This document shows, in pieces, positions 9,599-51,627 of a stretch of 53,295 nt of DNA. The DNA lies in IMG/VR virus record IMGVR_UViG_3300021085_000042, positions 1 through 53,295 of that record. One strand, 5' to 3'. The notes beneath the pieces were generated by a model, which saw nothing but the letters and a program-made list of their open reading frames with translations, was not told where the DNA came from and made no database searches. A program made the position numbers and the translations under genes. Position 1 is the first letter of the stretch, and the number at the start of each line of letters is the position of its first letter. This DNA comes from a virus.

Positions 9599-9606
9599 TA
9601 TTTATT
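9599..9606 (-). promoter_or_regulatory. Possible late promoter AATAAATA
   Basis: AATAAATA on the minus strand 33 bases before the 9566 start codon. It fits the relaxed NATAAATA form and sits in front of a structural gene, but the first base differs from TATAAATA. Confidence 0.45.
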
Positions 9607-10972
9607 GTACGTAACAGTTCAGTTCGTATTTTGCGCCCATATTATACACTTGAATCTGAAGCATTTGACGAACGGGCTTGCCTTTTTTCATCAACTTGAT
9701 CGAGTAAGAGTTGGTCTTATCTTTGCTAGGCTTTTTAGGACCAGTAGCAACTTTATCATGCCAATCGTCTTCATCAATATCAAATCCTTTTTTCTTAGCA
9801 ACTGCAATTGCTTCTTGCACTGCACCACTAAAAGTGTTATGATATAGTTTGTAGTTGGGCGCTTCTTGAAGGTCTTGTTGGACTTCTTCATTAACAACCT
9901 CTTCATTATAACCAGGCTTGATAGCTAGAAGACCCATCTTAGACTTAGGCACTTTTAGCATCTTGGCAGCCTTCATTTTGGCTCCGTATAGATCCTTTGC
10001 TTCGCTCTTTTTGATCTCTACTTTCTTACCGTTATAAATTGCTACCCATCCAGCCATCTTAGACTCTTCGATGTTTTCTGGCTTATGTGGCTTACCACAC
10101 GATTCACAAATTTTCTTTCCACACTCGCAACCACAGTCACAGTAATCTTCTTCACTGTCTTCTTTTACGACTTTACCGTTCTTAGAGATAATGCCCTTGT
10201 ACCCTTCCTTTTCCTTATCGGCAAGATATTTCTTGGCATATACCAATAGGTTGAAAGGCATCGTCCGAATCGGTCCACGCTTTGACATTGAATACTTAAC
10301 TATAAACTTCTCTTCGAGTACTTCACCATCTTCTTCAGCTTCATTGAGTTGCTTTTTCAGCTTATCAATTTTTCTCTGAATAGCAACTTTCTTCATCTTA
10401 ACAGAAGATGTGTTACCAAAGAAAGTCTTGAGATACTTCTCTGCTTGATCAATCTGCTTTTGAATCTTAGCCTTGTCTACGCCTTCATCTAGTTCAACTT
10501 CTTCACGCATAGTCTTCAGAGCATGTACCATATCTTTGTATGATTTGCCCATTGCAGTTTGAAGTTTCTCTTTATTATCTGGCTTACGAAAAGAAGCAAA
10601 CTTCTTAAGTGCAAGTTCAATAACTTTTGGAGGCAACTTAGCTTTCTTACCATCAGCAAATTGAATAGGAAGATTACCTCTCACGTCTGCCGCTTTACGC
10701 AACTGCATGATAATGTTCATCTTAGCGCCAGCTTTATCTTTGTCAGTTGCAACTAAGTCGAGGTCAGCAGGATCGAACTTCTCATTCACATCTTCGTTTT
10801 GACGCTTAAGTACCGCCCTAACTTGTGGATGATCAGACAATCCTTTTTTCATCTTCTCAATAGCTTTGACTGCACCAGTCATATTGCCACCGGCATAGCG
10901 TTTATCAGACGCAATACCAATCGCTTGCTTGACATGCATAGGACTAAATTTTTCGTTTAGTTCGTCAGTCAT
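9602..10972 (-). CDS. Modular lysine/glutamate-rich protein with Cys cluster, probable internal virion protein
   Basis: 456 aa, strongly charged. Modules visible: an N-terminal helical part (residues 1-160), a coiled segment (KAKIQKQIDQAEKYL), a basic block (KFIVKYSMSKRGPIR), a cysteine cluster DYCDCGCECGKKICESCG near residue 280 that could bind zinc, and a segment KMAGWVAIYNGKKVEIKKSEAKD that recurs in marine phage proteins. Modules are joined by acidic stretches (EEVELDEG, EEDGEVLEEK, YNEEVVNEE). Such spacing resembles the neighbouring giant protein at 14070. TAA of the upstream gene touches this ATG. No enzymatic motif was recognised. Confidence 0.6.
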   Translation of the reverse strand: MTDELNEKFSPMHVKQAIGIASDKRYAGGNMTGAVKAIEKMKKGLSDHPQVRAVLKRQNEDVNEKFDPADLDLVATDKDKAGAKMNIIMQLRKAADVRGNLPIQFADGKKAKLPPKVIELALKKFASFRKPDNKEKLQTAMGKSYKDMVHALKTMREEVELDEGVDKAKIQKQIDQAEKYLKTFFGNTSSVKMKKVAIQRKIDKLKKQLNEAEEDGEVLEEKFIVKYSMSKRGPIRTMPFNLLVYAKKYLADKEKEGYKGIISKNGKVVKEDSEEDYCDCGCECGKKICESCGKPHKPENIEESKMAGWVAIYNGKKVEIKKSEAKDLYGAKMKAAKMLKVPKSKMGLLAIKPGYNEEVVNEEVQQDLQEAPNYKLYHNTFSGAVQEAIAVAKKKGFDIDEDDWHDKVATGPKKPSKDKTNSYSIKLMKKGKPVRQMLQIQVYNMGAKYELNCYVQ

Positions 10973-11896
10973 TTAGTCCTCCAACGCTTTAGAGATTGCT
11001 TTTCTACGCTTATGTAAGTACTCATCAGATTCGTCTTCATCGCCATCGTTGTCGATGTCTTTGTCTTTACGATCATCAAACTTCTTTTTAACAGCTTTAG
11101 GTTGAACTTTGTCCATGCCTTCACCATCGTCTGACTTGTCGTTAGAGTTATCTTCTTGAACTCCTTCGTAAGTCTCTTTACAATACTGAGCATATAGTTC
11201 TTCGAACTTCGCTTCCGAACAACCATACTTCTCACTCACTTTCTTATACATTTCATGCTTTGAGCATGAGGAAGCGTGTAGTTTTTTCATTTCGCCTACG
11301 CAAGACTTCTCGTCCATGTATGATTCTTTCAAACTCTTTTGAACATCTGCGATAGTCTTACATGATTTATCACATCCAAGACTTTTCTTAGCGTAAGCAA
11401 TAAGTTTAGCGTCTGGACCAGTCATTTCAACATCATCTCCACCAAACGAAGATGAGCCGATCTTTTTCATCTTGATACCGGCTGGTGCTTTACCAGTGAA
11501 CGACTTTACAGTAATAGTAGCTTCGTACATTACGTCTTCAAGTTCTACTTTACCACCGTCTTGAACAAGTTCAATTTCTTCGTGTTGAGATTTTGAAGCG
11601 GCTTTTACAGCAGTTTCTACAGACTTGGCTGCCTTATCTTTCGATGAGATCATGCCAATTTCTGGAGTTACGTCTGCTACTTTAGGTGTCTTAGTATCTC
11701 CGTCACCTGGTGCAGTTTTATCTGGTCCACGTGAACCTGTTGCTTCTGTTACTTCTTCTGGCTGTGCTTCAACTTCTACTACTGGTTCTTCAGCAACAGG
11801 CTCAGGCATTTTATATCCCTGAGAAGCAACTTTAGCAGTGAATGCATCAACCATACCTGCTGGCAGTGGTTGAATGTCTTCGGCTTTCTTAAACAT
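10973..11896 (-). CDS. Acidic modular protein with EF-hand-like loop, probable internal virion protein
   Basis: 307 aa. The N-terminal third is rich in Pro/Glu/Val (EEPVVEVEAQPEEVTEATG). A middle region contains scattered Cys (LGCDKSCK, SSCSKHE, KYGCSE, QYCKE). The C-terminus has KFDDRKDKDIDNDGDEDESDEYL, where DxDxDGDxDxxD resembles an EF-hand calcium loop, followed by a basic HKRRKAISKA end. This end module recurs, with variation, in marine T4-like phage proteins. Late promoter GATAAATA lies 30 bases before the start. Function unknown; calcium binding is inference from the loop only. Confidence 0.6.
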   Translation of the reverse strand: MFKKAEDIQPLPAGMVDAFTAKVASQGYKMPEPVAEEPVVEVEAQPEEVTEATGSRGPDKTAPGDGDTKTPKVADVTPEIGMISSKDKAAKSVETAVKAASKSQHEEIELVQDGGKVELEDVMYEATITVKSFTGKAPAGIKMKKIGSSSFGGDDVEMTGPDAKLIAYAKKSLGCDKSCKTIADVQKSLKESYMDEKSCVGEMKKLHASSCSKHEMYKKVSEKYGCSEAKFEELYAQYCKETYEGVQEDNSNDKSDDGEGMDKVQPKAVKKKFDDRKDKDIDNDGDEDESDEYLHKRRKAISKALED

Positions 11897-11925: not shown

Positions 11926-11933
11926 TATTTATC
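11926..11933 (-). promoter_or_regulatory. Late promoter GATAAATA
   Basis: GATAAATA on the minus strand 30 bases upstream of the 11896 start, overlapping the stop codon of the preceding gene. It fits the NATAAATA late class. Confidence 0.6.
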
Positions 11934-12288
11934 AGTTATCAACTTTTGAGCTTGCACGCCATTGGTAACACGACCAATACTTTGCTTTCCATTTAGGACC
12001 AGGATTATCACATCCATGCCTTGCTCTAAAACTTTTCCTTCTTGCAGGATCATCTCGTTTGATTTCCATGTTCGGATCACCAAATTGAACTTTCACCACA
12101 TTTCCCTTTTCGTTCTTAGCGTATACGCCAAACTTTCTTTTAGATCCACTGGGCAGTCTGAAAGGATCGTTCAGCGTAACCTTTCTTCCTTGATACTCAG
12201 ATTCTTCTAAAACTAAATCTGCATAGATGTCGCACTCTTCACATACGGCATCAATAGTTTCTTCGTTATATCTTTTAAAGCTTTTCAT
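11932..12288 (-). CDS. Small basic protein with capsid-targeting-like N-terminus
   Basis: 118 aa from ATG 12288, which overlaps the upstream TGA by one base. The first residues MKSFKRYNEETI match an F-x-x-(F/Y)-x-x-E pattern shared with several neighbours and with the capsid-targeting sequence of T4 internal proteins. The rest is one compact domain: VTLNDPFRLPSGSKRKFGVY, then KVQFGDPNMEIKRDDPARR, KSFRARHGC, and a terminal CYQWRA. The DP-x-RR-x-S-F-RARH-x-C part recurs in many large phages as a domain of unknown function. Basic charge suggests DNA contact inside the head. Confidence 0.65.
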   Translation of the reverse strand: MKSFKRYNEETIDAVCEECDIYADLVLEESEYQGRKVTLNDPFRLPSGSKRKFGVYAKNEKGNVVKVQFGDPNMEIKRDDPARRKSFRARHGCDNPGPKWKAKYWSCYQWRASSKVDN

Positions 12289-12506
12289 CATTGTGCGTCC
12301 CAATATGTCTTGTCAAGTTCACCAGTTGCAGGTGGGTTACTAGTTTTTCTACACTTGATATATGTCTGTCTAGCGTTACCACCAGGTAAAGTAAATGTTC
12401 GAATACCATTAGCGATAGTGCCAGGAGTATCTGAATAAGTGTCAGATGCAGTTGCGGCATTATCGTATTGCCAAGCAGTGTTATTAGTGACTGTAACCCA
12501 AGCCAT
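12288..12506 (-). CDS. Small protein of unknown function (72 aa)
   Basis: 72 aa, beta-leaning, with AWVTVTNNTAWQYDNA at the start and GELDKTYWDAQ at the end. I do not recognise the family. Both ends overlap neighbours (TAATG upstream, TGATG downstream), so it is firmly part of the late operon running from the endolysin region. A structural or head-decoration role is possible, by context only. Confidence 0.6.
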   Translation of the reverse strand: MAWVTVTNNTAWQYDNAATASDTYSDTPGTIANGIRTFTLPGGNARQTYIKCRKTSNPPATGELDKTYWDAQ

Positions 12507-12742
12507 TACTCTTCTCCGTCTTTGTTCATCATGTATCGATGAGCAGAGTTCAAGTAATCGGCAGCCTTAGTGATCTTGTTCTGTACCCACTCTGGCAGAT
12601 TATCTTCGTCTTCAAACATCTTAACCATATGATCTGCGTCAGCCAATATACCACGTAGTTGGGTCTTAGCCATACCGCCTTCGTTGTCATACTCTTTCGG
12701 GTCTTTAGCTTCTGTCCTAAAATCGCTGAACTTTTTAATCAT
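12506..12742 (-). CDS. Small helical protein with capsid-targeting-like N-terminus
   Basis: 78 aa. Starts MIKKFSDFRTEAKDP, an F-x-x-F-x-x-E-A pattern like the cleaved leader of T4 internal proteins. The remainder (EYDNEGGMAKTQLRGIL, then DNLPEWVQNKITKAADYL) is a short helical module that I associate with marine T4-like phage proteins, often fused to other modules. No enzyme motif. Lies directly after the endolysin gene. Likely packaged or scaffold-associated; this is inference. Confidence 0.65.
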   Translation of the reverse strand: MIKKFSDFRTEAKDPKEYDNEGGMAKTQLRGILADADHMVKMFEDEDNLPEWVQNKITKAADYLNSAHRYMMNKDGEE

Positions 12743-12746
12743 TGTA

Positions 12747-13613
12747 CTATCCTAATAGTTTCTTTAGAGTTGCAGGACCAGCTACTCCATCAGCAGTCAA
12801 ACCATTTGCGGCTTGCCACGCTCTTAATGTACGCTTAGTACCAGGTCCAAAAATACCATCAGCGCCAATACCGAGTGCTTTCTGCACTGCGGCTACTGTA
12901 TCGCCTCTATCACCAGTTGTTACTGTTACGTATTCAACTTTAGATTTACTGGATGATTTCTTAGGGGCAGGAATCTTTCCGCCCATAATCTCAATAGCGG
13001 CATTGTAACGCTTAGTTCTATCTGCCAAGCCAATATCACCACCATTAATCTTCTTAGTCATTTTAACGATATCGCCTTTGTCTGCGATAGCATTTAACTT
13101 AGATGTCTTCCAGAACCAGCAAGCACTTTCAATAGCACCCTTTTCAGTTGCTACATATTCAGCGGCTTGTTCTGCTGTCATGCTTACGGTCTTACCGAAC
13201 TTAGTATAGTTCTCACGACCAGTAAGTTGCTTCAGTCCACGACCTCTAAATAACCAGCCGTCTCCATCTTTAACGTTACCCATCTTGTACTTACGGAACT
13301 CATCCATATATACGTAGTTAGCAATTTTCTCTGGGTTACGGGCATACTCTTTTGCGTCACGCTTTGGTGAATTACCAAAGTAACGTCCAAATACTCTGTT
13401 CAATGCGCTTTCGCTATAATTCAAGTTCTCTTCTAATGACTTAAAGTTATTACTTTCGTGGGCACATTGTGCAATAAATCCAGCCATTCTTTCAGGCGTG
13501 TTGATGTCGTACTTAGGAAAGATTTCTACAATCGCATCGTACCACATATCTACTTTTGAGTTGCCAGGAATCATTGCTGCCAGCATCTCTTTTGTTAATT
13601 CAAATTTACTCAT
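12747..13613 (-). CDS. Endolysin: GH19 glycosidase with peptidoglycan-binding domain
   Basis: 288 aa from ATG 13613. The N-terminal 190 residues match phage GH19 lysozymes: FIAQCAHESNNFKSLEENLNYS with the catalytic Glu in AHES, YARNPEKIANYVY, and DGWLFRGRGLKQLTGRENY. A Lys/Ser linker (PAPKKSSSKSK) leads to a PG_binding_1-type domain with VAAVQKALGIGADGIFGPGT and LTADGVAGPAT repeats. Cuts cell-wall glycan at lysis. No signal peptide is seen, so it needs a holin. The longer reading frame to 13640 encodes MKMFWRKNK over the GGAG ribosome site and is not the real start. Confidence 0.9.
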   Translation of the reverse strand: MSKFELTKEMLAAMIPGNSKVDMWYDAIVEIFPKYDINTPERMAGFIAQCAHESNNFKSLEENLNYSESALNRVFGRYFGNSPKRDAKEYARNPEKIANYVYMDEFRKYKMGNVKDGDGWLFRGRGLKQLTGRENYTKFGKTVSMTAEQAAEYVATEKGAIESACWFWKTSKLNAIADKGDIVKMTKKINGGDIGLADRTKRYNAAIEIMGGKIPAPKKSSSKSKVEYVTVTTGDRGDTVAAVQKALGIGADGIFGPGTKRTLRAWQAANGLTADGVAGPATLKKLLG

Positions 13614-13614
13614 C

Positions 13615-14073
13615 TTATTTTTTCTCCAAAACATTTTCATTCCCTTCGTGTATCTTTTTTGTGAAAGTCTTTGGGTAGCTGTACACGTGTTTTAATAATT
13701 CATGAACTTTCACATCTGCTTGCATGATATCTATATTTCCACCTACGTTTCGAGCGGCTAACCATCGATGATGTCCGTCAATGATATAGTTATCTTTACT
13801 CACAATCAGAGGTTTTGCTTGACCAAGAGTCTTGATCTTAGCGATTGCCCCTACAATCTTATCTTTGTTAAATTCTTTCTGAATAGGCTTTAAACTCTTA
13901 GCAGGAACCTTAGTCTTTTTCACAGCAACGTTGTTCTTCTTCAGATGCTTGATAAGTCCATCATAATCTTTCGATCTTACTTGAGGCATCTTGTCTCTTG
14001 TAAAACCTAGAGTATCTGTGGACTTAGGTTCATAGACCTTAAGTTCTGACACAAAGTTCCTAAACTTCTTCAT
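13615..14073 (-). CDS. ParB/sulfiredoxin-fold protein with capsid-targeting-like N-terminus
   Basis: 152 aa. The middle contains a ParB-type core: LGQAKPLIVSKDNYIIDGHHRW with the IDGHHRW motif, where ParB-like and sulfiredoxin-like enzymes bind nucleotide. Such domains act as DNA-binding CTPases, nucleases or kinases; catalytic type cannot be fixed here. The first eleven residues MKKFRNFVSEL fit the F-x-x-F-x-x-E leader shared with neighbours. Start overlaps the stop of the giant upstream gene as ATGA. The endolysin gene follows one base after its stop. Confidence 0.75.
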   Translation of the reverse strand: MKKFRNFVSELKVYEPKSTDTLGFTRDKMPQVRSKDYDGLIKHLKKNNVAVKKTKVPAKSLKPIQKEFNKDKIVGAIAKIKTLGQAKPLIVSKDNYIIDGHHRWLAARNVGGNIDIMQADVKVHELLKHVYSYPKTFTKKIHEGNENVLEKK

Positions 14074-17000
14074 ACCTTGATCACTTTACTAGATGTGCCA
14101 AAGTTCTTCTTACGCATGATAGTCTTGTTGACTACTTCGTATTCATCCTTTTCGCTATCATAGTTAATGACGATAGGTAAGTTCAAATCTGCTTGAATGT
14201 CCTTAAGCACTGCTTCGATGTCAGGATTTTGACGAATGTTCTTTGCTTTGTTCTTTGCAATCTTTTTGAATACTCGCTGAAGTTCTGCAATAGTGATAGC
14301 AGGCTTATTGCGATCATCGTTCATTCTGTCTGCAAAATGCTTAGTGAATTCTACGTCAATGCCAAACTTGTCGAGTAATCTATCTGCAAACCTTTCTAAG
14401 TCATTCAACTGCTTCTGAGTAACTTCTTCTTCGAAGTGTGCTTCAAATAGATCATCTACTGACTCAGTGACAGTCTCGCCAGGAGTATCTTTCTTGTAAC
14501 GCTTAGTAACTTTTTCAGTACCTCTATCACCAGCACCGCCCTGTTCGAATACATAATCACTAGGCACCATATCTGCTAATGTTCTGCCATCAACGCCTGC
14601 GTAACTTTTTGCGATTTGTGCGGCATAGTATCCTACGCCATGTCTAATCTTACCTTTTGACTCTTTCTTTTTTCTGTCGAGTACAGTGGTGAGAGTTTTT
14701 AATGCGTGTTGGTAGTTCTTTTTGTTAGTAATAGATCCTAACTTAGACCTGATAATGTCTTGTGTACTTCTCTCTGCAAAATGCTCTTCAAACATGAGGT
14801 CTTCAGTACTAGATTCTTCAAATGCCTCCCTTGCTACAATTCTCCAGCCTTGCTTCTTCATTCTATCAGCAGTAGCTCCATCGACTTTGCGTTGGTAAGG
14901 TCCTTTCTTAACTACATAGACTTCTGCGCCTTCATTCTTAGGCACACAGTTAGGCACTAGCTTACCGTTTTTCTTTTTCATGCCTCTTTGTTCGTGAGAG
15001 TCCCAGCATGGATCATCCTCTTTCAAAGACTTACCTTCGCTATCGTAACCAGGTTTACCAGCTTTCTCTTTCTTAGAGATAGCAATTGCGGCACGTTGTG
15101 CGGCTGAAACTGCGCCCTCTTCTAACTTGCCACCAGCATCTACGAATGCGGCAACAGCCATTTGTTGTTTCTTCTTATCAGACTTACCTGCAAACTGAGG
15201 AGCATCTGAGTTTTTGAAGTCATCAATCCAAGCTCCAAGTCCATCGGATACTTTTAACTTCTCTTCAATCTCTTCTTTCTTAGAACTACCACGAACTTTA
15301 GCGGCTAGGTCTGCGTCTGCTTTACCCCATGTGCCCGATGACTTAGTGATGAAAGAATTGACACGTGCAAAGCCCCATTGCTGTGGAGTAGTACCTGGTC
15401 TATGTCCAGTTCTCCAAGCGGCAATACCTCTGTTATAAACTTGACGTAAAATACCAAGTGGCATTCCAGACTTCTCTGCTTTCTTCTTTAATCCTTCATC
15501 GCCTTTTGCTTCATCTAATGTTACCTGATCAACAATGTCGTTTGTAGTCTCTTCGATGAATGCAATTAAATCTTTATCAGAGTGAAACTCTTCTTTGTTA
15601 ACTTGAGTGATCTTCTTACGTAACTCTCTAGTAAGCAATCCATCCATCTCACGCTCATGCTCTTTAGATAAGTTTTGTCTTTCGTCTTTGTGTTGTCTTT
15701 TAAGTCGCTTCTCTGCATCTGTATTGATAGTTATTTCAGCTATTTCGACTTCTTCTTTACGTTGTCTGAATGCACGAAAACGGCGGTCTAGTTTTATTTG
15801 ACCTTCTTTATTAAACATCTGATGATATCGTTTAGTGTGTGTAGATGTTTTTGTTTTTGCTTCTGCATCACCAGGTGCTGGTTTGTACGCATCTGGATTA
15901 TCATCATCCATCTTAGCGCCCTTCTTGAAATGTGCATCACGTTTTACTTTAGTAGACTTAGCAAGACCTTTATGATATACTGCTGGCTGTGTGCCTTTAC
16001 GATCAGCAATATCTTTGTCTTGACCTACAGTAGGCTCCTCAAACAAGTTAGAGAATTCTTCATTGATGATATAAGACTCAAACTCTTCGTTAGCACTTTT
16101 CTTGCCAGATAATTTAGCTAGGTCTGCTTTTCTAACCGAAGGTAGTAGCTTCTTAGCGATTCTATCAATAGCTGATTTTTTCTTTGCAACACGCTTATCG
16201 ATAAGCATCTTCTCAGAAGGAGATAGTGAAGCATAGTTCTCACCCTTCTTGCCTGCAACCTTTTTACGAATTACTTTGATGGCAGCCTTTCTAGCACGAA
16301 CTTTAAGTTTGTCCATAGTAGCGGCTTTCTTTGCCATACGTCTACGACCTTGAGCGATCTTAGACTTGAACTTACGCATGGTTATTGATCTCATGCGTCT
16401 TTGCTGAATAGTCAACGCTTCGTCAAGCTGTTCTGACATCTCTGCAATCTTCATGCCGCCACGTACCATATCGTATACGTCTTGTGCGTCACCTTGAAGT
16501 CTGCGAGGCAAACCAGTTTTGAATTTTTTGAAATCGCCCTGTGAGGCTGCGGCTCTCATCTTAGATGCAGACATACCAGAAACACCTTCGGAATCTGGGT
16601 CACGATCTCCAGCAGATACGATTTTAATGCTATCGAATCTATAGTCTTTGCCGTTATACTTATTTAAGAGTTCATCGAATTGTTTGATTCGATCTTGACC
16701 AACAACTAGAACTACTTTAGAAAAACTCTTCTGTAATTCTTGCATGATCTGAATGATAGTACGTGAATTAGATTTTACGATTATGTTACCAAATGCTTTC
16801 TTGGCAAGCATAATTTTGTCATCGTAATCTAGAGGATTCTTTTTAGCATCTTGACTATGAGAGACATAGACTAAAGGAGTTGCTCCTTCTTGCTTTGCAA
16901 CTGATTTAATTTTGTTGACTAGTTTTTCATGACCAACCGTGATTGGATTCATTCTACCCCAACCGAGAACGACTGTCTTGTTGGGAGCTTCTTCAAGTTT

Positions 17001-17150
17001 AGGATTGATCTCAATCGAATTCTTTACGAGAAGTTCGTCTTTTACTTTCTTCGAAGCCTTCTTTGACTTCTCTGTCTTATCCGTCTTCTTTTTAGAAGTC
17101 GTTTCTTCACCAGAGTTTGCCTCTGGATTATCCATAGAATCATCTTGCAT
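14070..17150 (-). CDS. Giant modular protein: nucleotidyltransferase domain plus basic and repeated modules
   Basis: 1026 aa. After a 57-residue Lys-rich lead, residues about 58-215 form a cytidylyltransferase/NMNAT-like domain: VVLGWGRMNPITVGHE (the TxGH version of HxGH), VVGQDRI, and SGMSASKMR at the second active-site motif. Next comes a very basic helical stretch (about 240-345, RRMAKKAATMDKLKVRARK), then modules with RTGHRPGTTPQQWGFARVNSF, DGLGAWIDDFKNSDAP, DPCWDSHEQRGMKKKNGK and a C-terminal part with EFTKHFADRMNDDRN. Acidic joints recur, e.g. NLFEEPT, MFEEHFAER, LFEAHFEEE. These resemble places where the gp21 protease could cut. First gene after the late promoter at 17207. Probably a packaged polyprotein, by inference. 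Confidence 0.7.
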   Translation of the reverse strand: MQDDSMDNPEANSGEETTSKKKTDKTEKSKKASKKVKDELLVKNSIEINPKLEEAPNKTVVLGWGRMNPITVGHEKLVNKIKSVAKQEGATPLVYVSHSQDAKKNPLDYDDKIMLAKKAFGNIIVKSNSRTIIQIMQELQKSFSKVVLVVGQDRIKQFDELLNKYNGKDYRFDSIKIVSAGDRDPDSEGVSGMSASKMRAAASQGDFKKFKTGLPRRLQGDAQDVYDMVRGGMKIAEMSEQLDEALTIQQRRMRSITMRKFKSKIAQGRRRMAKKAATMDKLKVRARKAAIKVIRKKVAGKKGENYASLSPSEKMLIDKRVAKKKSAIDRIAKKLLPSVRKADLAKLSGKKSANEEFESYIINEEFSNLFEEPTVGQDKDIADRKGTQPAVYHKGLAKSTKVKRDAHFKKGAKMDDDNPDAYKPAPGDAEAKTKTSTHTKRYHQMFNKEGQIKLDRRFRAFRQRKEEVEIAEITINTDAEKRLKRQHKDERQNLSKEHEREMDGLLTRELRKKITQVNKEEFHSDKDLIAFIEETTNDIVDQVTLDEAKGDEGLKKKAEKSGMPLGILRQVYNRGIAAWRTGHRPGTTPQQWGFARVNSFITKSSGTWGKADADLAAKVRGSSKKEEIEEKLKVSDGLGAWIDDFKNSDAPQFAGKSDKKKQQMAVAAFVDAGGKLEEGAVSAAQRAAIAISKKEKAGKPGYDSEGKSLKEDDPCWDSHEQRGMKKKNGKLVPNCVPKNEGAEVYVVKKGPYQRKVDGATADRMKKQGWRIVAREAFEESSTEDLMFEEHFAERSTQDIIRSKLGSITNKKNYQHALKTLTTVLDRKKKESKGKIRHGVGYYAAQIAKSYAGVDGRTLADMVPSDYVFEQGGAGDRGTEKVTKRYKKDTPGETVTESVDDLFEAHFEEEVTQKQLNDLERFADRLLDKFGIDVEFTKHFADRMNDDRNKPAITIAELQRVFKKIAKNKAKNIRQNPDIEAVLKDIQADLNLPIVINYDSEKDEYEVVNKTIMRKKNFGTSSKVIKV

Positions 17151-17206
17151 TTTTATTCCTCTATCGTAGGTTTACCGTAGTCTTACTACAACGATTTGTT
17201 ATGTAC

Positions 17207-17214
17207 TATTTATA
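17207..17214 (-). promoter_or_regulatory. Late promoter TATAAATA
   Basis: Exact TATAAATA on the minus strand, 57 bases upstream of the 17150 start and just after the stop of the preceding gene. It should drive the giant protein, ParB-like, endolysin and following small genes. Confidence 0.75.
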
Positions 17215-17216
17215 AA

Positions 17217-17666
17217 TTACAGTAGTTCCCTACTGTCTTCCCATGTCTTTTGCATACTAGATAAATTTTTTCTAGCAACTTCTACTTCAGTGAGTGCCTC
17301 TAGTTCTAACACTTCAGCATTGATACGCTGATCTTTTAGTATCTGATATTTTTCTTCTATCTGACGCACCGTTTCTGAATAGTTTTGAACTGCATGTCTT
17401 GCGTCTTTTTCTGCTTGAATTGCAAGCAAAGGATCTACAGGCTCATTTTCAATAGATGGCATAAGAGGATGCTCAATATCTGCTTGTCCCCATTCTTCTT
17501 CAAGTTCTGCGTCTACATAGATAGGATCTAAGTTTTCTTCTGAACTGGATAAGTGGTCACTAAGCCGTTCAATTAAGACGGATTTAGTAAGTCTTCTATC
17601 CAGTTCAATGCCAACTGTACGTCCATAATCTTCTAACTCACGCTTTGTCATATCAACGAAATTCAT
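17217..17666 (-). CDS. SAP/HeH-like helical protein with coiled coil
   Basis: 149 aa. The N-terminal FVDMTKRELEDYGRTVGIELDRR and TKSVLIERLSDHL form a helix-extended loop-helix pattern like SAP/HeH DNA-binding motifs. The middle is acidic (EENLDPIYVDAELEEEWG) and the C-terminal 70 residues are predicted coiled coil. The fold suggests DNA or scaffold contact; actual role is unknown. The preceding 53-aa membrane gene ends two bases before this ATG, so they are probably co-translated. Confidence 0.6.
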   Translation of the reverse strand: MNFVDMTKRELEDYGRTVGIELDRRLTKSVLIERLSDHLSSSEENLDPIYVDAELEEEWGQADIEHPLMPSIENEPVDPLLAIQAEKDARHAVQNYSETVRQIEEKYQILKDQRINAEVLELEALTEVEVARKNLSSMQKTWEDSRELL

Positions 17667-17668
17667 AA

Positions 17669-17830
17669 TTAGTCCTCTGATTTAACTAACGTAAAGATGC
17701 CATAAGCGATTGCGCCATATGCTGCCCAACCGACTAGACCTTGAAACATAAGTGCAACTACACCAACTGCGATAAGAACTCCACCATCCCAAGATGTGCG
17801 TTCCATTAATCTGTTTTTTAACCAATTCAT
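17669..17830 (-). CDS. Small two-span membrane protein, holin-like (53 aa)
   Basis: Starts at ATG 17830 behind a strong AAAGGAG site. A basic amphipathic start (NWLKNRLMERTSWDG) precedes a hydrophobic span GVLIAVGVVALMF and a second LVGWAAYGAIAYGIF, ending KSED. Two short spans and 53 residues would suit a small holin or other inner-membrane protein; the endolysin gene 4 kb downstream needs one. There is no decisive holin signature, so the assignment is tentative. TAA is two bases before the next start. Confidence 0.6.
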   Translation of the reverse strand: MNWLKNRLMERTSWDGGVLIAVGVVALMFQGLVGWAAYGAIAYGIFTLVKSED

Positions 17831-17850
17831 ATTATTCTCCTTTAAATGCG

Positions 17851-17910
17851 AAAGCAGGCATGAAGCCCGCTTTACGTTAAGACTTCGTATTACTATTTAG
17901 CGTAATACGA
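17851..17910 (-). other. Twin perfect hairpins upstream of the small membrane gene
   Basis: Two adjacent stem-loops. The first in transcription order (17885-17910) has a perfect 9-bp stem with an 8-base loop. The second (17851-17873) has a 9-bp stem, one G-U pair, loop of five. Neither is followed by a clear U-tract, so they may be processing or stability elements rather than classical terminators. Confidence 0.55.
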
Positions 17911-17976
17911 ACCGATGATAATGCCATTTTCTTTAAAGGTCTCGATCCAGCATCGAATGTAACCATCATGACACAT
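17893..17976 (-). CDS. Doubtful 27-aa reading frame
   Basis: A frame from ATG 17976 reads MCHDGYIRCWIETFKENG and ends YYAK, with its stop inside the first twin hairpin. It could extend seven codons upstream to a non-ATG start. No good ribosome site is seen. The composition looks protein-like (no low complexity), so it is listed with low confidence. Confidence 0.25.
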   Translation of the reverse strand: MCHDGYIRCWIETFKENGIIIGSYYAK

Positions 17977-18000
17977 ATAGCCACGATAAAATATTTTAAT

Positions 18001-18135
18001 TTAATGCGTTTTGTACATAGTATGTTTATATTCCGAAATCTCTCGGGCTTTTTCATAGTATCCTAATTCTCGTAATTTTTTGATAGATATGCAATAGCTT
18101 CTATATTCCATTGCTTTCATAAATCTTTTTATCAT
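18001..18135 (-). CDS. Small DUF1127-like basic protein (44 aa)
   Basis: Starts MIKRFMKAMEYRSYC and contains ISIKKLRELGYYEKAREIS, a helix-turn pattern like the L-x-x-L-x-D-x-(E/D)-L-x-D-I-G core of DUF1127 proteins but with a different second half. Its ATG follows the stop of the 52-aa gene by one base. With that gene and the 80-aa gene it forms a three-gene set of similar short Arg/Lys-rich proteins. In proteobacteria DUF1127 proteins affect RNA and nutrient regulation; for the phage version this is inference. Confidence 0.5.
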   Translation of the reverse strand: MIKRFMKAMEYRSYCISIKKLRELGYYEKAREISEYKHTMYKTH

Positions 18136-18136
18136 T

Positions 18137-18295
18137 CTATTTCTCTAGCATTAATCGTTTTGCTTCTTCGTGCATGCCCATCCGTGATAGTTCAGATGCG
18201 GCTCTTGCTCTACCGGCTGATTCGCCAATCGACCACATTGTGCCCCAAAAACCAGAAAGAGGTGCGAATGTAAATTTCAAAATTGCTTCAGCCAT
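18137..18295 (-). CDS. Small protein of the DUF1127-like cluster (52 aa)
   Basis: Reads MAEAILKFTFAPLSGFWGTMW, then GRARAASELSRMGMHEEAKRLM. The C-terminal half resembles the segment LRELGYYEKAREI of the next gene, suggesting duplication. The N-terminal half is moderately hydrophobic and may lie on the membrane. Start and the upstream stop overlap as TAATG (18293-18297). Too short for a confident family call; coupling on both sides makes a real gene likely. Confidence 0.55.
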   Translation of the reverse strand: MAEAILKFTFAPLSGFWGTMWSIGESAGRARAASELSRMGMHEEAKRLMLEK

Positions 18296-18537
18296 TATAC
18301 CCAACCTCGCAAGTTTGGATTATCTGATCTATCTGGAGAATATTCGCCAATTGATACTGAGTGAATTAGTCCTCTATGCAGACCAATGTCTGATAATTCT
18401 TTGTCTGTAAGTTTTGATAGTTGATTATAAGTTTCTCTATAAGTCTTGCGGTCTTCGAAGTATCTCACCACTTTATAGATGTAAGCGGATAAGAATGAGA
18501 AATCTAAAAATCGTACTGCGGCTAATACGTGTGCCAT
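18295..18537 (-). CDS. DUF1127 (YjiS-like) protein
   Basis: 80 aa. The motif YNQLSKLTDKELSDIGLHRGLI at residues 38-59 is the DUF1127 signature. The N-terminal 30 residues (LAAVRFLDFSFLSAYIYKVV) are hydrophobic and may be amphipathic. DUF1127 genes are common in alpha- and gammaproteobacteria, where some bind RNA and adjust phosphate or carbon metabolism. A phage copy may have come from a host. Behind AAAGG and the late promoter at 18591, first of three linked small genes. Confidence 0.75.
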   Translation of the reverse strand: MAHVLAAVRFLDFSFLSAYIYKVVRYFEDRKTYRETYNQLSKLTDKELSDIGLHRGLIHSVSIGEYSPDRSDNPNLRGWV

Positions 18538-18590
18538 TATGTAACCTTTCGTATGTGATAAATGTGTTACGTCAATCTTGTTGACGCAAA

Positions 18591-18598
18591 TATTTATA
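18591..18598 (-). promoter_or_regulatory. Late promoter TATAAATA
   Basis: Exact TATAAATA on the minus strand, 54 bases before the DUF1127 start. A 6-bp stem (CGTCAA/TTGACG, loop of five) lies in the predicted leader. Confidence 0.7.
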
Positions 18599-18655
18599 CA
18601 AGAAAAGTGTAATTTTGTGATGCTAAATCCGAATACCCGTGATGCGGTAAATGAC

Positions 18656-19885
18656 TTACTTCTGCCAGCCCTTAATAAATTCGTCTGAGAAATTTGCTTT
18701 AGAAAATCCCATTCTATCTACAAGCTTAACTGCATTCTTACCCATCCTATCAATTGCAACAAAGCCTTCTTGTTCTGTGACTTTGTATCCATCTTTTGTT
18801 CTTAAGAACGTACCTATGGATTTTGCTTTATCCAGTTTAGTAATGATAAGTAGTTTTACTTCAACGATCATATTATACAATTCAAACAATGCAACAATCT
18901 GAGACTTATCGATATTTGAAAAGTATGACATTACATCTTTTCGTCTCTCTGTCTTACTAGCTTTGCCCTTTTCAGATTTCATCTTATCAATTTCTTTTTG
19001 GTAATACTCGTACATCCAGTCTACCATGTCAGTGACGAACTTAGAAGGATTTGCAATCTTTTCACCTGCACGTACTTTTACGTTCAGATATGTTTTAACT
19101 CTTGTAAGCAGTTCTTCGTTCTCTGTTATGCCATCAAACGTTGCTTTGTTTACTTTATTAAACTGTTTACCAGCGGCAGATAATAGTAGAGTAATTGCAT
19201 CTGTCTCTGTCTGTGTCATTGTGGCATTACCACTCACATCTTTATATACTGCGTCTACTGACCAGACCGATCTCGTGTCTTTGAGATTGCTTGCGATCTT
19301 CTCTCCAAAAGACGCTGACATTGATTCAAAAGATTTTCCTCTGTAGTTAGTGTGCCAAACCACACCGATCTCGGATCTGAGGATTTTAGTAGCAAGTGGG
19401 CTTTTCGCTGGTATAGCGTAAACAATCGTATTAGGATGAAAAGTAATATACGATTCACCATCAATCTGTACTTTCTTAATATCTTTCTTCGCATAGAGGA
19501 AATCACCTTGTATCACTCCTTTAATATTCATAGATGGCAGATGTTTCAGTGCCAAATTTAATTTAATATTCAAATCACCTTTTGTATCAGCATCAACATC
19601 CGCTTTAGTCTTATAGACCTTAGGGTTCTTATTGAAGATACCTTTCTTCGCAACGAAGAACTTACCATCAGAAGGATCAATACCTGCAAACACTGCTGGT
19701 GCTCCATCCCATTTGACAGTCACATTAACTGCGGAACGAGATTTACCTGCCAACATATCACGTAGAGATCGTAGATAGTTTATAGACTGTCTTGCTCCAT
19801 CAACGCCTGCATTTAGCAAGTTATCTTCGAGGTGCTCCATGTGAGTGTTTTTAGCTTCAGTTAAAAATGATGAAAGGCGTTGCAT
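18656..19885 (-). CDS. Ligase-fold nucleotidyltransferase-like protein with capsid-targeting-like N-terminus
   Basis: 409 aa from ATG 19885, behind GGAG and just after the upstream TAG. The enzyme core has the polynucleotide-ligase/capping superfamily motifs in order: VTVKWDGAPAVF (motif I, KxDG with the Lys that would be adenylylated), GVIQGDFLYAKKDI (motif III-like), EQEGFVAID (motif IV, EGxV) and KLVDR (motif V-like). Total length and other sequence differ from the true ligase at 29206. The leader MQRLSSFLTEAKNT fits the L/F-x-x-F-x-x-E-A capsid-targeting pattern. It may seal nicks or modify nucleic acid; substrate unknown. Confidence 0.7.
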   Translation of the reverse strand: MQRLSSFLTEAKNTHMEHLEDNLLNAGVDGARQSINYLRSLRDMLAGKSRSAVNVTVKWDGAPAVFAGIDPSDGKFFVAKKGIFNKNPKVYKTKADVDADTKGDLNIKLNLALKHLPSMNIKGVIQGDFLYAKKDIKKVQIDGESYITFHPNTIVYAIPAKSPLATKILRSEIGVVWHTNYRGKSFESMSASFGEKIASNLKDTRSVWSVDAVYKDVSGNATMTQTETDAITLLLSAAGKQFNKVNKATFDGITENEELLTRVKTYLNVKVRAGEKIANPSKFVTDMVDWMYEYYQKEIDKMKSEKGKASKTERRKDVMSYFSNIDKSQIVALFELYNMIVEVKLLIITKLDKAKSIGTFLRTKDGYKVTEQEGFVAIDRMGKNAVKLVDRMGFSKANFSDEFIKGWQK

Positions 19886-19886
19886 T

Positions 19887-20690
19887 CTATGCTCCAAATA
19901 ATTTCTTTACGTCTTCAGAATTATCGAGGCTATACTTAGACTTGATATTAGTCTTCAATCTGCCTTGACAACGATATCCAGCACCGACAACACGATAGTC
20001 TTCACCTTCAAATTTTCTTGCTTTACTTCCAGATGGTCCCAATCTGAATTCGATATTAACAGATCCTTTGTATTCTGGAACATCTAATTTTAAAGGATTG
20101 CTTCCTAGATAAAAAAGACCTGCTTTACCAATCTGAATGTAATATACGTTCTTTCGGTTATATGCTTTAGCGATTGTTTTCGCTGAGTCAAAAGACTGTA
20201 TCGCATTCATCTTAGTTAAGTAGCCAGCTTTCTGTGCCGCTGACCATGCGTCTTTAGTGACTGAACCGAAAGGTATCGTATATGGTGTTTTTTTGTGGAA
20301 TGCTACAGGCTCTTGCTTACGAATAAAGTTAACCCAATCTTTTAGTGCTTTGTCTTGTTTCTTTGCCGCTTCTATGAAAAATGGAATAGCGTCATCGTCT
20401 ACCGCATCGGGTTTGACTAAAGTGTGGGTCTTATTCTGAGTGTCTATTCTAATAGACGTACCGCCCATCTGAGCATTCTTATCTAATTTAATTTCGATAT
20501 TGAATTCTTTACCGTTGTATAATGCTTCAATATCACCTGCACCTTGATTACTGTATCCTGCACCTGGCTTACTGCCGACATCTAATCCAATCACACCAGC
20601 AGATTTCATTGCATCGAAGACCTTTTTTTCGTATGCTAGTCCTTTTGCACCGACTGATTCGGTAATGAAACTTTTAAATCTAACTGTCAT
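19887..20690 (-). CDS. PD-(D/E)XK-type nuclease-like protein with capsid-targeting-like N-terminus
   Basis: 267 aa. A nuclease core is visible around residues 40-75: GYSNQGAGDIEALYNG (Asp), then KEFNIEIKLDKNAQ with the E-x-K motif. The leader MTVRFKSFITESVGAKG matches the F-x-x-F-x-x-E pattern and would give cleavage after ITE. The C-terminal half is basic (GPSGSKARKFEGEDYR). Overlaps the upstream gene as ATGA and is followed at once by the ligase-fold gene, so a cut-and-join pair is possible. DNA target and activity are inferred. Confidence 0.65.
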   Translation of the reverse strand: MTVRFKSFITESVGAKGLAYEKKVFDAMKSAGVIGLDVGSKPGAGYSNQGAGDIEALYNGKEFNIEIKLDKNAQMGGTSIRIDTQNKTHTLVKPDAVDDDAIPFFIEAAKKQDKALKDWVNFIRKQEPVAFHKKTPYTIPFGSVTKDAWSAAQKAGYLTKMNAIQSFDSAKTIAKAYNRKNVYYIQIGKAGLFYLGSNPLKLDVPEYKGSVNIEFRLGPSGSKARKFEGEDYRVVGAGYRCQGRLKTNIKSKYSLDNSEDVKKLFGA

Positions 20691-48174: not shown

Positions 48175-49443
48175 TTATAGCAAGTTAGTAACTGCTGTAC
48201 GTCTGTAGTAGACGTTAGAGTTGGCAGTAAGTGCGCCAGATCCAACAGTTGCACCTTGTGCGAATGGGTTAGAAACCATTCCGTAACGAGTTTTGAAGCC
48301 CAGTTTTGACTGGAAGCTGTTCTCGCCAACTGCACGAACCATTTGTAACGGTACATATGGGCAATAGAAAAGACCAGCATCGAATGCGCTAGAACCTTTA
48401 TAACCTACTACCATGTAGTTTGCACCGGCATATGGATCGATGTACACTCTAAAGCGACCGTTAAGAACACCAGCAAATGTGTTGCCTGTGTCATCTGGGT
48501 TCAAGTTGTTAGAGTTAAGTGCTGGAGTGTAATCAAGAACGCCAGCCATTTGAAGTGCAGAAGCAACATCAGATGAACATACGATCATGTTACCTTTTCC
48601 TCTACGAGTGTCTTTAGCGATTTGATTCGCTTCTTTCTCGATTTGGAACATCAAGCCCTTGAACTTCTCTACTGACCAACGGCCATTAGCGTCAACGTCA
48701 AGATTGAAAGTACCGTTAGATGCTACTCCGCCTTGTGAACCAGCTTTAGCATTCGTGTAAACTGTACGAATTACTTCACGGTTAATTTCAGCAAGCAACT
48801 CAGCAGACAACATGTTTGCTAACTCAGTCTCAGCATCCAAACCATGGATAGCTTTAAGGTCTTGAGCAAGCTCAGTTGTGTACTCAGCTTTCAAAGCACG
48901 TGACTTAGCAGTCACAGACACTTTTTCGATAGAGAAAGACATTTGAGCAAATGCGTTATTAGTCGCATCGCCAAGTGCTTCTGCATCAGCAGTAGCCATA
49001 CCAGTACCAGTTGTTTCTGATCCTGCACCCAATGCGTTAGCATGAGTACCAGCACCGGAGTAATCGGTATCTGCTTCGCCGTAGAAGGCTTCTGGCTTAC
49101 CAGATGTGTCTTCGTACTTAGAACGCATAGCGAAGATCAAGCCAGTTGGGCCAGTCATCGGCTGTACGCCTGCGATATCATATGCAACCAAGTTAGGCAT
49201 TGCACGGCGTACTAGTGAAATCAGTACGGGGTTGTAGTTTTGCACATCAGCAGTTGAGTTAGCTGGTGCGGCTTCCGAAAGCAAAGATCCAGATGTTCCA
49301 AGGCTTTCACCTTCTCGCATGGATGTTTCTGTATTCTCCAAAAGAGTTGCCGTTACGGCCGCTCTGTGAGAATCTTGGATGCCGGGCAGAGCGCCATGCT
49401 CTAGAATCGGCTTCCACTTTTGCATTAGTTCTTCATTTCTCAT
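48175..49443 (-). CDS. 23: Major capsid protein, gp23
   Basis: 422 aa (T4 gp23 is 521, with an extra insertion domain). HK97-fold shell subunit. N-terminal KWKPILEHGALPGI corresponds to T4 KWKPLLEGEGLPEI. A gp21 cleavage site is expected after LLSE (E57), before AAPAN, like T4 FLAE. Core landmarks: RRAMPNLVAYDIAGVQPMTGPTG, KAEYTTELAQDLKAIHGLDAE, VYIDPYAGANYMVVGYKG and FKTRYGMVSNPFA. Late promoter and AGGAGA site upstream, terminator downstream. Confidence 0.96.
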   Translation of the reverse strand: MRNEELMQKWKPILEHGALPGIQDSHRAAVTATLLENTETSMREGESLGTSGSLLSEAAPANSTADVQNYNPVLISLVRRAMPNLVAYDIAGVQPMTGPTGLIFAMRSKYEDTSGKPEAFYGEADTDYSGAGTHANALGAGSETTGTGMATADAEALGDATNNAFAQMSFSIEKVSVTAKSRALKAEYTTELAQDLKAIHGLDAETELANMLSAELLAEINREVIRTVYTNAKAGSQGGVASNGTFNLDVDANGRWSVEKFKGLMFQIEKEANQIAKDTRRGKGNMIVCSSDVASALQMAGVLDYTPALNSNNLNPDDTGNTFAGVLNGRFRVYIDPYAGANYMVVGYKGSSAFDAGLFYCPYVPLQMVRAVGENSFQSKLGFKTRYGMVSNPFAQGATVGSGALTANSNVYYRRTAVTNLL

Positions 49444-49490: not shown

Positions 49491-50423
49491 TTATTTTGCG
49501 GCAAAGCGGCCAAGCGATTCCGCATAACGAGCAACATCTGGGTCAACATATGTTACTTGCTCTGCTTCTTCCGCAGTCTCTTCTTGTAGAAGATCGGTTT
49601 CGTCTTCTTGCACAGGAGCAGGAGCTTGTTCAGCAAAGTAAGAAGTTTTAATAGCTTCCATCTTAGTTGCAAACTCTTCTACTGATTCGTAAGACACGCC
49701 TTCTGAGAGAACACGCAATTTTTCGACTTGAGTGTCTGTTAAGTCCTCAGAAATAGTTTTGAATGCGATATCAATATCAGACTTTTCTTTCGCTTCACGA
49801 ACTTCAATCATTTGCTCAACGATGTCGTTGTACTTAGAAGTAGACTCTTCGAGTTTAGCTTCCAATTCTGCAACTACATCGACTTGCTCATCATCGATTT
49901 CCATGTTATGCTCAATAACAAGACCTTTGATACTAGTTAAAAGAGATTCAGCGACTTCAACTTTAATGTTGCTTTCGACTTCAACCTTGTTGTCTTCCAT
50001 CCAGCTTTCTACAACGTAGTCTAGATATTGGTCAACTTTTTCAACTAACTCGTCTACAGTAACATTAACTTGCTCCTGCAGATCACTTTCAAACTTTTCT
50101 TCAAGTGAGGCTTTCTCAGCAGTCACTTTCTCTTGTACAGCGGCTTCGAAGATAGCTACTGTTTGTGTTTTAAAATCTTCAGACAATTCGGTGCCTTCAA
50201 ATAGACGCTCGACTGCTTCTTTCAGTCCTTCGTCATTTGAGCCCTGTGGTGTTTTAACATCGTCTTCGATGTTATCTGCTTTTGGATCGGCTGCCTTTTT
50301 AACATCGCCTTTACGCTTTTTTACAGCGCCACCAGCGGGTGTTACAGGATCAGCCGCAACAGAATCTTCACCAGTTGCTTTGGCTTCGTCCAAGTCTAGA
50401 TTTTTCTCTAGTTCTTCACTCAT
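49491..50423 (-). CDS. 22: Prohead scaffold core protein, gp22
   Basis: 310 aa, highly acidic and mostly helical, as expected of the scaffold that is later cut up by gp21. Conserved block VDELVEKVDQYLDYVVESWMEDN near residue 125-150 is diagnostic of gp22. N-terminal third is Lys/Asp-rich and flexible; Glu-rich tail ends RYAESLGRFAAK. Longer than T4 gp22 (269). Own late promoter at 50460. Confidence 0.93.
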   Translation of the reverse strand: MSEELEKNLDLDEAKATGEDSVAADPVTPAGGAVKKRKGDVKKAADPKADNIEDDVKTPQGSNDEGLKEAVERLFEGTELSEDFKTQTVAIFEAAVQEKVTAEKASLEEKFESDLQEQVNVTVDELVEKVDQYLDYVVESWMEDNKVEVESNIKVEVAESLLTSIKGLVIEHNMEIDDEQVDVVAELEAKLEESTSKYNDIVEQMIEVREAKEKSDIDIAFKTISEDLTDTQVEKLRVLSEGVSYESVEEFATKMEAIKTSYFAEQAPAPVQEDETDLLQEETAEEAEQVTYVDPDVARYAESLGRFAAK

Positions 50424-50471: not shown

Positions 50472-51167
50472 TCATGTTTTTGACAATGAACTTACAAATT
50501 TTTCGAAAAGAGCGGCCGCCTTGATCTCTAGTTCCCTAGTAGATACTTTAGCAGTCTCTTTGATTTCCTCTTCAATCTGATCAAATGCATTTGCCATTGT
50601 CCACGAAGAAGATGCTACATCATAGATCCAGTCAACGCCTTCCATAACACCCTTAACGAATGCATCTGGAGCTGATGGATCTGCAACGATATCTCCGGCA
50701 GTAGCTAACATAAAGTCGCTCTGCACTTCCATAACGCCATCTTTATTCTGCTTAATAGAACCCATACCACGTGAAGAGATCCCTACGAGACCGCCCTCAT
50801 CAATAAGATTTTTAACAATCTTACCCATAGGAGTTTCCATTATCTTTGCTCTTCCAACAATGTTAGAGCCTTCTTTTTTTAAATCTGTAAACATGTGAGA
50901 CACACGATCTAGATTGATAGTAGGACCAGCAGGATGACCCAGTTCTCCGTATGCTCTATTTTTAGAAACATAAGATTCGTTGTAACGCTTAGTTTCTGCT
51001 TCTAAAATAGTAGCAGGATATAAACGTCCATTTCTGTTTTTGATATCACCTTGCATGATGATACCTTCAATGAAATAATTCTTTCCGGTCTTTTCGCCTT
51101 CTTCGTTTATAATATCTTCTTTGAGATACTGAACGTCTTCAACGATTTCTTTGATTAGTAATGTCAT
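50472..51167 (-). CDS. 21: Prohead maturation protease, gp21
   Basis: 231 aa (T4 gp21 is 212). Serine protease that cleaves head proteins, including gp22 and gp23 and any protein with a capsid-targeting leader, after short hydrophobic-x-Glu motifs. Catalytic His is H78 in GELGHPAG and Ser is in VGISSRGMG (S131/S132). N-terminal FIEGIIMQGDIKNRNGRLYP is the usual family start. It begins one base after the stop of the gp68-position gene. Confidence 0.93.
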   Translation of the reverse strand: MTLLIKEIVEDVQYLKEDIINEEGEKTGKNYFIEGIIMQGDIKNRNGRLYPATILEAETKRYNESYVSKNRAYGELGHPAGPTINLDRVSHMFTDLKKEGSNIVGRAKIMETPMGKIVKNLIDEGGLVGISSRGMGSIKQNKDGVMEVQSDFMLATAGDIVADPSAPDAFVKGVMEGVDWIYDVASSSWTMANAFDQIEEEIKETAKVSTRELEIKAAALFEKFVSSLSKT

Positions 51168-51168
51168 G

Positions 51169-51627
51169 TCACTTACCTGCCGTCATTGCAAATTGAACGA
51201 TCTGCATAAACTTTTTACTATCGTCTAGCATGCCTTCAACTTTCTTTTTATTAGATCCATTCAACTGCTTGTGCATTGAAAGAATCATTGATGCTGTGGT
51301 TAAGTCGACCTTTTGCTTTTTACCGTCTTTAAACTTAACTTGTCCAATTGACTTTCTTTTTACGATACTAGCTAAATCTTCAAGAACACCTTCAACAATG
51401 ACCTCTTCTTCAGCTTCAACGTCTTCGTAGACTTTCTTATCTTGACCTTCTTCACGATCAGCTTCACGCTTCTTTTTCTTCTTACCCTTGATCTCGCCAG
51501 AAAACTGATCATCTGGTGCGACAGGATGGTCACGCTTGTCAACGATATGTTTGTCTAAAAAATTCTGCTCATCTGGAGACTTTGGTTTATCTGTAGTCTC
51601 AGCAAGCATTTCCTTAAAGCTTTTCAT
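51169..51627 (-). CDS. Prohead core-like protein in gp68 position, capsid-targeting-like N-terminus
   Basis: 152 aa. Occupies the place of T4 gene 68 between 67 and 21. Starts MKSFKEMLAETTDKP, fitting the F-x-x-(F/M)-x-x-E leader with likely gp21 cleavage after LAE. Basic patch KGKKKKKREAD, acidic middle, and a C-terminal helical part (SMILSMHKQLNGSNKKK). Probably a minor scaffold or internal protein; direct similarity to T4 gp68 is not obvious, so the name is by position. Confidence 0.65.
   Translation of the reverse strand: MKSFKEMLAETTDKPKSPDEQNFLDKHIVDKRDHPVAPDDQFSGEIKGKKKKKREADREEGQDKKVYEDVEAEEEVIVEGVLEDLASIVKRKSIGQVKFKDGKKQKVDLTTASMILSMHKQLNGSNKKKVEGMLDDSKKFMQIVQFAMTAGK

Follow-up and report, generated by a model that had tools for sequence, protein, structure and literature searches.

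The window analysed here, the 53,295-base IMG/VR virus record IMGVR_UViG_3300021085_000042 of an uncultivated T4-like phage, encodes six proteins that very probably carry a T4-type capsid-targeting sequence: they would be made late, targeted to the prohead core, cut by the prohead protease gp21, retained in the head and delivered with the DNA. The common leader, its independence from the bodies that follow it, the association between leader and virion presence seen in relatives and the predicted folds of the cargo were computed directly. The six proteins and their leaders are listed below (an arrow marks a predicted or candidate cut here and throughout).

20658..20690, minus strand: leader MTVRFKSFITE of p20690 (p=1.2e-4; predicted cleavage after Glu11)
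19887..20690, minus strand: PD-(D/E)XK nuclease-like protein p20690 (D53, E66, K68)
19856..19885, minus strand: leader MQRLSSFLTE of p19885 (matrix score 18.9, p=1.2e-4; predicted cleavage after Glu10)
18656..19885, minus strand: DUF6267 protein p19885, predicted RNA/DNA-ligase-fold nucleotidyltransferase (PF19782, E=2.9e-111; K58-W-D60-G61 motif)
14044..14073, minus strand: leader MKKFRNFVSE of p14073 (p=1.2e-4; in relatives e.g. MIRLKTYLTE, MKKFRTYIAE)
13615..14073, minus strand: ParB-like protein p14073 with a DGHHR motif (phrog ParB-like, 3e-9)
12710..12742, minus strand: leader MIKKFSDFRTE of p12742 (p=1.2e-4; MKTFATFVAE, MKRFSEFMSE and MKTFVEYVSE precede the same body in relatives)
12506..12742, minus strand: small acidic protein p12742 (in relatives the body also occurs as part of longer fusion proteins)
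12202..12288, minus strand: extended leader of p12288, MKSFKRYNEE...LVLEE (predicted cleavage after Glu29, LEE↓SEYQG)
11932..12288, minus strand: p12288, with a phrog_7595 body (1.4e-13)
51598..51627, minus strand: leader MKSFKEMLAE of p51627 (p=1.2e-4)
51169..51627, minus strand: prohead-core-like protein p51627 at the T4 gp68 position, in the portal–gp21 interval (phrog_26626, 3e-16; gene order compared with T4)

A common leader in the window and in T4

The first-pass annotation had reported six N-termini with a common pattern, F/L-x-x-F/Y-x-x-E, and all six are present at the starts listed above, nearly all of them with a ribosome-binding-type sequence upstream. The pattern matches exactly six of the 70 window genes, namely these, while shuffling of residues 2-30 gave a mean of 0.33 matches and never more than four in 5000 trials. 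Because circularity was to be avoided, a weight matrix was trained on other phages only (T4 IPII and IPIII and the leader proteins detected in S-CREM2 and S-SM1 virions, no window sequences). T4 gene 61.1 was removed from the training set because its virion status is not established, whereupon p12288 drops out of the top nine. Scored against a background of 8680 internal Met positions, the 324 candidate starts of the window are headed by 19885, 12742, 20690, 51627 and 14073 (each p=1.2e-4; binomial for the five jointly 7.9e-7), and T4 IPI, which lies outside the training set, scores p=3.5e-4. The leaders end on a hydrophobic residue, any residue and Glu (V-S-E, L-T-E, I-T-E, L-A-E), with p12742 as the exception (R-T-E); p12288 has LEE at residues 27-29.

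In T4, targeting by the leader and injection of the internal proteins are established (PMC3012670, PMC12373910). The start MKTYQEFIAEA that had been ascribed to IPI, IPII and IPIII alike is right for IPII and IPIII (identical or similar), and IPI starts MKTFKEFTSTTTPVSTITE. The T4 internal proteins, which are packaged and injected, resemble the window set in their N-terminal pattern (MKTYQEFIAE), in having unrelated bodies behind a common leader and in the presence of gp21 (PMC3012670, PMC12373910). The window set agrees with them in every feature that could be compared, and by its leader would belong with the capsid-targeted internal proteins of T4, virion presence being known only in relatives. 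T4 gp61.1 (gene 61.1, T4 18966-19130) begins MKTFKEFIKED, a perfect leader, and would be an unrecognised internal protein, if packaged.

The head module of the window is of T4 type, with the portal, two small genes at the gp67 and gp68 positions, gp21, the scaffold and the major capsid protein (MCP). The features that bear on processing and expression are as follows.

50472..51167, minus strand: gp21-type prohead protease (Peptidase_S77, 5e-36)
49491..50423, minus strand: gp22-type scaffold (phrog_237, 1e-70)
48175..49443, minus strand: MCP (54% identity to the S-CREM2 MCP)
51858..51865, minus strand: late promoter TATAAATA, upstream of 51831 and 51627
17207..17214, minus strand: late promoter TATAAATA, upstream of the gene for a 1026-aa protein and of p14073 to p12288

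The Peptidase_S77 match bears out the earlier statement that gp21 is present, and a gp21-type protease is also encoded in nine of the nine other records searched. The MCP contains a candidate protease site, LLSE57↓AAP. In marine T4-like phages gp67 and gp68 have been reported missing, unlike in T4; relatives of p51627 keep MKSFKEMLxE↓T, with a variant MKSFKQFTVE↓T in one contig (L384). A megablast search for near-identical phage records found none. Sites for the late promoter TATAAATA are clearly more frequent in the window than expected (13 versus 3.6, 12 of the 13 on the coding strand), and the variants CTAAATA and NATAAATA show no enrichment there. The claim that all leader genes lie under late-type promoters stands in part: the sites at 17207 and 51858 are the only ones that cleanly precede operons with leader genes, and for 20690 and 19885 the closest site (20998) falls within the preceding gene.

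Leader genes in the virions and genomes of relatives

For S-CREM2 (219 genes), virion proteins were taken from Table 3 of PMC10665884, and the counts for this phage refer to that table. The strict leader occurs on six of the 219 genes, five of which encode virion proteins (Fisher 0.003 over all genes, 2.9e-4 over non-structural genes), while among 159 non-structural genes without virion detection the strict leader is found on only one. The five comprise a SAM hydrolase (MKDFDSFLEE), an APH/ChoK-like kinase (VKRFDAFLTE), a cytidylyltransferase (MKNFSSFLTE) and the hypothetical proteins gp13 (MKDLHSFLTE) and gp136 (MQTFSMFFSE). All named non-structural virion enzymes in the table begin with the leader except two endolysins, which lack it and are probably tail parts, and a protein annotated as Cas9, in which LRFASFMAEA starts at residue 17 (16 residues in). 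The S-CREM2 protein annotated as Cas9, gp12 (L002 7704-10313), has no Pfam match and only phrog_3561, of function not known, so that the name is doubtful; gp12 and S-CRM01 g128 have in common the N-terminal pattern RWxxWSxG...SFxxEA.

Further virion proteins reported for cultured cyanophages follow the same rule. The S-SM1 virion cytidylyltransferase T4-GC190 (PMC3037559) begins MKKFSAFLNE, and the S-SCSM1 virion NMNAT begins MKSFLQFLKE. In S-CRM01, the kinase that has been reported from virions begins MISFDQFLSE and lies within a run of leader genes. The cytidylyltransferase/NMNAT, kinase and SAM hydrolase enzymes listed in the particles of S-CREM2, S-SCSM1, S-CRM01 and S-SM1 thus carry the leader; in the sections covered, the proteome papers on these phages mention no targeting signal and do not settle whether contamination contributed, and the present analysis supplies such a signal. 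In about two-thirds of the S-SCSM1 genome, the credible leader-like matches number two, a virion protein and a small unlisted one, and this phage therefore seems to use the leader sparingly; no DUF6267 was found in the same two-thirds. The homologies between the window and S-CREM2 include, among proteins of the leader region, only the cytidylyltransferase and not the leader proteins themselves. That the leader marks packaged proteins, as first proposed from the window, passed the comparison with published cyanophage virion proteomes, and capsid packaging of the leader proteins is, as a prediction from sequence, strongly supported.

Computed over relatives, the leader behaves as detachable from the body. 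In DUF6267 proteins, F/L-xx-F/Y-L/I-x-E stands directly before the body (conserved KNTHMEHLED) in 71 of 83 distinct N-terminal segments, and an alignment of 72 leaders, in which the Glu column is fixed by the choice of register, has F/L in 71, F/Y in 67 and L/I in 70 sequences, with the remaining columns free. The DUF6267 proteins of S-PM2, P-HM2 and S-CRM01 and the P-HM2 cytidylyltransferase begin at the body, without a leader. Relatives of p20690 have quite different leaders and keep E↓S/T before the body. In relatives of p12288 a canonical leader abuts the body (MKSFREFIEE↓SEYQG in L292, MLTFTQFIAE↓AEYQG in L186), and LVLEE↓SEYQG in the window is therefore likely to be cut; the membership of p12288, weak when taken alone, is backed by these relatives and not by its own score.

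Across about 200 related viral contigs we found 189 distinct leaders, and the bodies behind them belong to about 20 families unrelated to one another; the search used a pattern that required a hydrophobic residue two before the Glu, which the DUF6267 alignment did not. Of the 21 clusters that the leaders form, two derive from distant genomes, and the DNA polymerase cluster is an apparent false match. The bodies had been described as unrelated in the window, and the same is seen in these relatives, where the families include a HAD phosphatase, a zeta-toxin-type kinase, an HD_4 hydrolase and, in Melnitz, a RimK-type ATP-grasp protein. Whereas T4 internal proteins of known function are small restriction inhibitors, the window set comprises predicted enzymes (nuclease, ligase-like, ParB-like, cytidylyltransferase) and an apparent polyprotein, and the leader enzymes of relatives (SAM lyase, kinase, HAD phosphatase, zeta-type kinase, HD hydrolase) likewise differ from the T4 cargo.

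Some of these genes lie close together. A leader-bearing zeta-toxin/PNK-like P-loop kinase and a HAD phosphatase occur near a ligase-like gene (L205 4171-5016, L159 2457-3065), and a similar P-loop kinase lies two genes past DUF6267 in HTVC008M (106562-107224); kinase, phosphatase and ligase-like gene together resemble an RNA end-repair kit. A leader-bearing HD_4 (SpoT-like) hydrolase in L167 (12168-12725) is a candidate for an injected enzyme that hydrolyses alarmones or nucleotides.

Predicted folds and candidate polyproteins

Structure predictions suggest that p19885 has an RNA-ligase-like nucleotidyltransferase fold and p20690 a PD-(D/E)XK nuclease fold. In the DUF6267 family, which Pfam records in 465 phage records, K58, D60 and G61 (KxDG motif I), E373-G374 and K387 of p19885 are invariant. 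Its model (pLDDT 82.8) is disordered over residues 1-15 (pLDDT<50), and all of the 50 best VIA-align matches are ligases (Z 5.9-8.1), led by the Naegleria RNA ligase (Z 8.1; 3.7 Å over 181 residues) and including REL1 (7.8), T4 Rnl2 (6.9) and T4 Rnl1 (6.8). In a set of 23 sequences, E66 and K68 of p20690 are invariant and D53 invariant or nearly so; the model (pLDDT 85.7) is disordered over residues 1-13, and the best 18 VIA-align matches are PD-(D/E)XK-fold nucleases and resolvases, among them HhaI (Z 8.3; 5.5 Å over 179 residues), Hjc (7.2), I-Ssp6803I (6.8) and HinP1I (5.7). The two proteins are alike in predicted fold and catalytic motifs to RNA ligases (Naegleria RNA ligase, T4 Rnl1 and Rnl2) and to PD-(D/E)XK nucleases (HhaI, Hjc, HinP1I), respectively, at about 10-15% identity in structural alignments and Z values of only about 8, and Foldseek alone gave no significant match for either model.

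Profiles, conserved residues and structure alignments uphold the ParB-like, ligase-fold and PD-(D/E)XK assignments made at first pass, the ParB-like one weakly: p14073 matches the phrog ParB-like profile at 3e-9 and Pfam ParB_N at 0.0099, below the curated cut-off. The small domains had been called basic, which p12742, acidic by inspection, contradicts. The family phrog_455 spans DUF6267 and a cytidylyltransferase region, which suggests fusions, and in L131 (and L132) a relative of the PD-(D/E)XK nuclease is fused after a cytidylyltransferase-like domain, with MKSFSKYYNDLE in the N-terminus.

Three further genes of the block may encode strings of cargo.

14070..17150, minus strand: candidate cargo polyprotein, 1026 aa (N-terminal cytidylyltransferase domain, phrog_3041, 3e-100)
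10973..11896, minus strand: possible third cargo polyprotein, 307 aa (C-terminal module common to other block proteins, including the S-SCSM1 virion protein gp92)
9602..10972, minus strand: 456-aa protein, possibly a second cargo polyprotein (contains hydrophobic-x-E sites; modules match variable proteins in relatives)

The 1026-aa protein has one recognised catalytic domain, the cytidylyltransferase, and several modules of unassigned family, several of which are separate leader-bearing genes in relatives (e.g. MIKFQNYISE↓SADAALKKKAEKSG, MQSFKKHLEE↓KLKASDD). When the leader ends of relatives are mapped on it, five of the eight coincide exactly with hydrophobic-x-Glu sites (LEE↓A55, LDE↓A245, IEE↓T535, IEE↓K631, FEE↓E909), a context for which 2.4% of its positions qualify (binomial 4.5e-7, an optimistic value because local alignments can favour Glu-on-Glu). 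The density of LxE[AGST] sites in the protein is not significantly raised (8 versus 4.6 by shuffling, p=0.09). Its orthologues in L280 and L281 begin with the leader MKDFKTLLNE. To judge from these sequences the 1026-aa protein is probably a cargo polyprotein, which would be processed at such sites. The nearest concept is that of the polyvalent proteins of phages and conjugative elements (PMC5512222), which are alike in being multi-domain, co-injected effectors that include ParB-like domains, kinases and RelA/SpoT-type enzymes; their release is ascribed to built-in peptidases, whereas here there are separate leader-tagged genes or strings with sites that fit the head protease.

Three other window genes are recorded for completeness. 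Directly upstream of the polyprotein gene, 17217-17666 has a weak match to phrog_8608, a family of prohead protease inhibitors (E 4e-4); 12747-13640, within the cargo operon, encodes a GH19-type endolysin with a peptidoglycan-binding domain; and 22797-23189 is an auxiliary metabolic gene, whose product is a NifU-like protein of Fe-S cluster assembly (phrog_8429, 8e-43).

Proposed packaging, its alternatives and its meaning

In the mechanism that we propose, the leader proteins would be made late, from TATAAATA at 17207 and 51858, and brought by the leader into the prohead core, where gp21 would cut after Glu (E10 or E11; after LEE29 in p12288); the mature bodies would stay in the head with the DNA and then be delivered with it. 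For this phage itself, packaging, cleavage and injection are steps reached by inference, injection from the example of T4. The cargo would comprise the PD-(D/E)XK nuclease, the RNA-ligase-like DUF6267 protein, the ParB-like protein, two small proteins and the core protein, and probably also the 1026-aa cytidylyltransferase protein. In the least certain step, it would act before phage gene expression, cutting host or competitor DNA and repairing RNA or DNA damaged by host defence.

Several observations weigh against this mechanism. T4 gp21 has A or G after the Glu, and the leaders here vary more (A, E, Q, S, D, K, L). The virion data on relatives contain no N-terminal peptide showing cleavage. 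DUF6267 is not among the virion proteins in the proteome data examined, and some cyanophages keep it without a leader. S-CREM2 gp175 matches the leader pattern and is not among the virion proteins of Table 3. The leader of p12288 alone is at noise level (p=0.006 in one scoring, outside the top nine with the final matrix). Finally, the authors of the S-CREM2 and S-SCSM1 proteomes themselves state, in the parts of their reports that were covered, that carry-over could contribute to virion detections.

It is conceivable, though improbable, that the leader is a gp21 site and core-binding tag of scaffold helpers, which act in head assembly and are degraded or lost and not injected. The core-protein-like p51627 at the gp68 position would fit such a role, as would the T4 MCP, which contains the same string, FGSFLTE↓A, and from which it follows that the leader motif includes a protease-type site. 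Yet leader-bearing SAM hydrolase, kinase and cytidylyltransferase are listed in mature S-CREM2 particles, and the bodies are conserved catalytic domains, chemistry for which a scaffold offers no reason. Less probable still is sorting elsewhere, for instance to the host membrane or to a replication compartment, with virion detection reflecting the carry-over of abundant late proteins that the proteome authors could not exclude; against it, the leader matches that of T4 IPII and IPIII, which is a capsid-targeting sequence (PMC3012670), the core protein adjoining gp21 also carries it, and it is nearly absent from S-CREM2 non-structural genes without virion detection. Coincidence, or an overall compositional bias at the N-termini of proteins in these phages, is a negligible explanation: loose patterns do give false matches (S-CREM2 gp64 and gp175) and p12288 is not significant alone, but for the set as a whole it is rejected by the shuffling, the independent matrix and the position-specific conservation of the 72 DUF6267 leaders, whose other columns vary, and the leader is moreover associated with virion presence.

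The capsid-targeting sequence of T4 is already known; the enzyme repertoire and the polyprotein in marine T4-like phages appear undescribed, and our search, which covered the open-access literature, turned up no description of a capsid-targeting leader in these phages. We see an even chance that many marine T4-like phages load cargo in a modular way, such that any gene gaining the ten-residue leader becomes head cargo and modules shift between single leader genes and protease-cut polyproteins; the payload would be an enzyme kit active from the start of infection (nuclease and RNA-ligase-like protein, joined in relatives by zeta-type P-loop kinase and HAD phosphatase) that resembles the T4 RNA repair pathway.

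If packaging by the leader holds, it provides a sequence rule for predicting the phage proteins that are carried in the head, accounts for enzymes whose presence in cyanophage virion proteomes had been puzzling and gives a delivery route to widespread families of unassigned role such as DUF6267. About 20 candidate injected effectors of marine viruses are thereby listed, and the 1026-aa protein suggests that T4-like phages may use the proteolysis of head maturation to cut cargo polyproteins.

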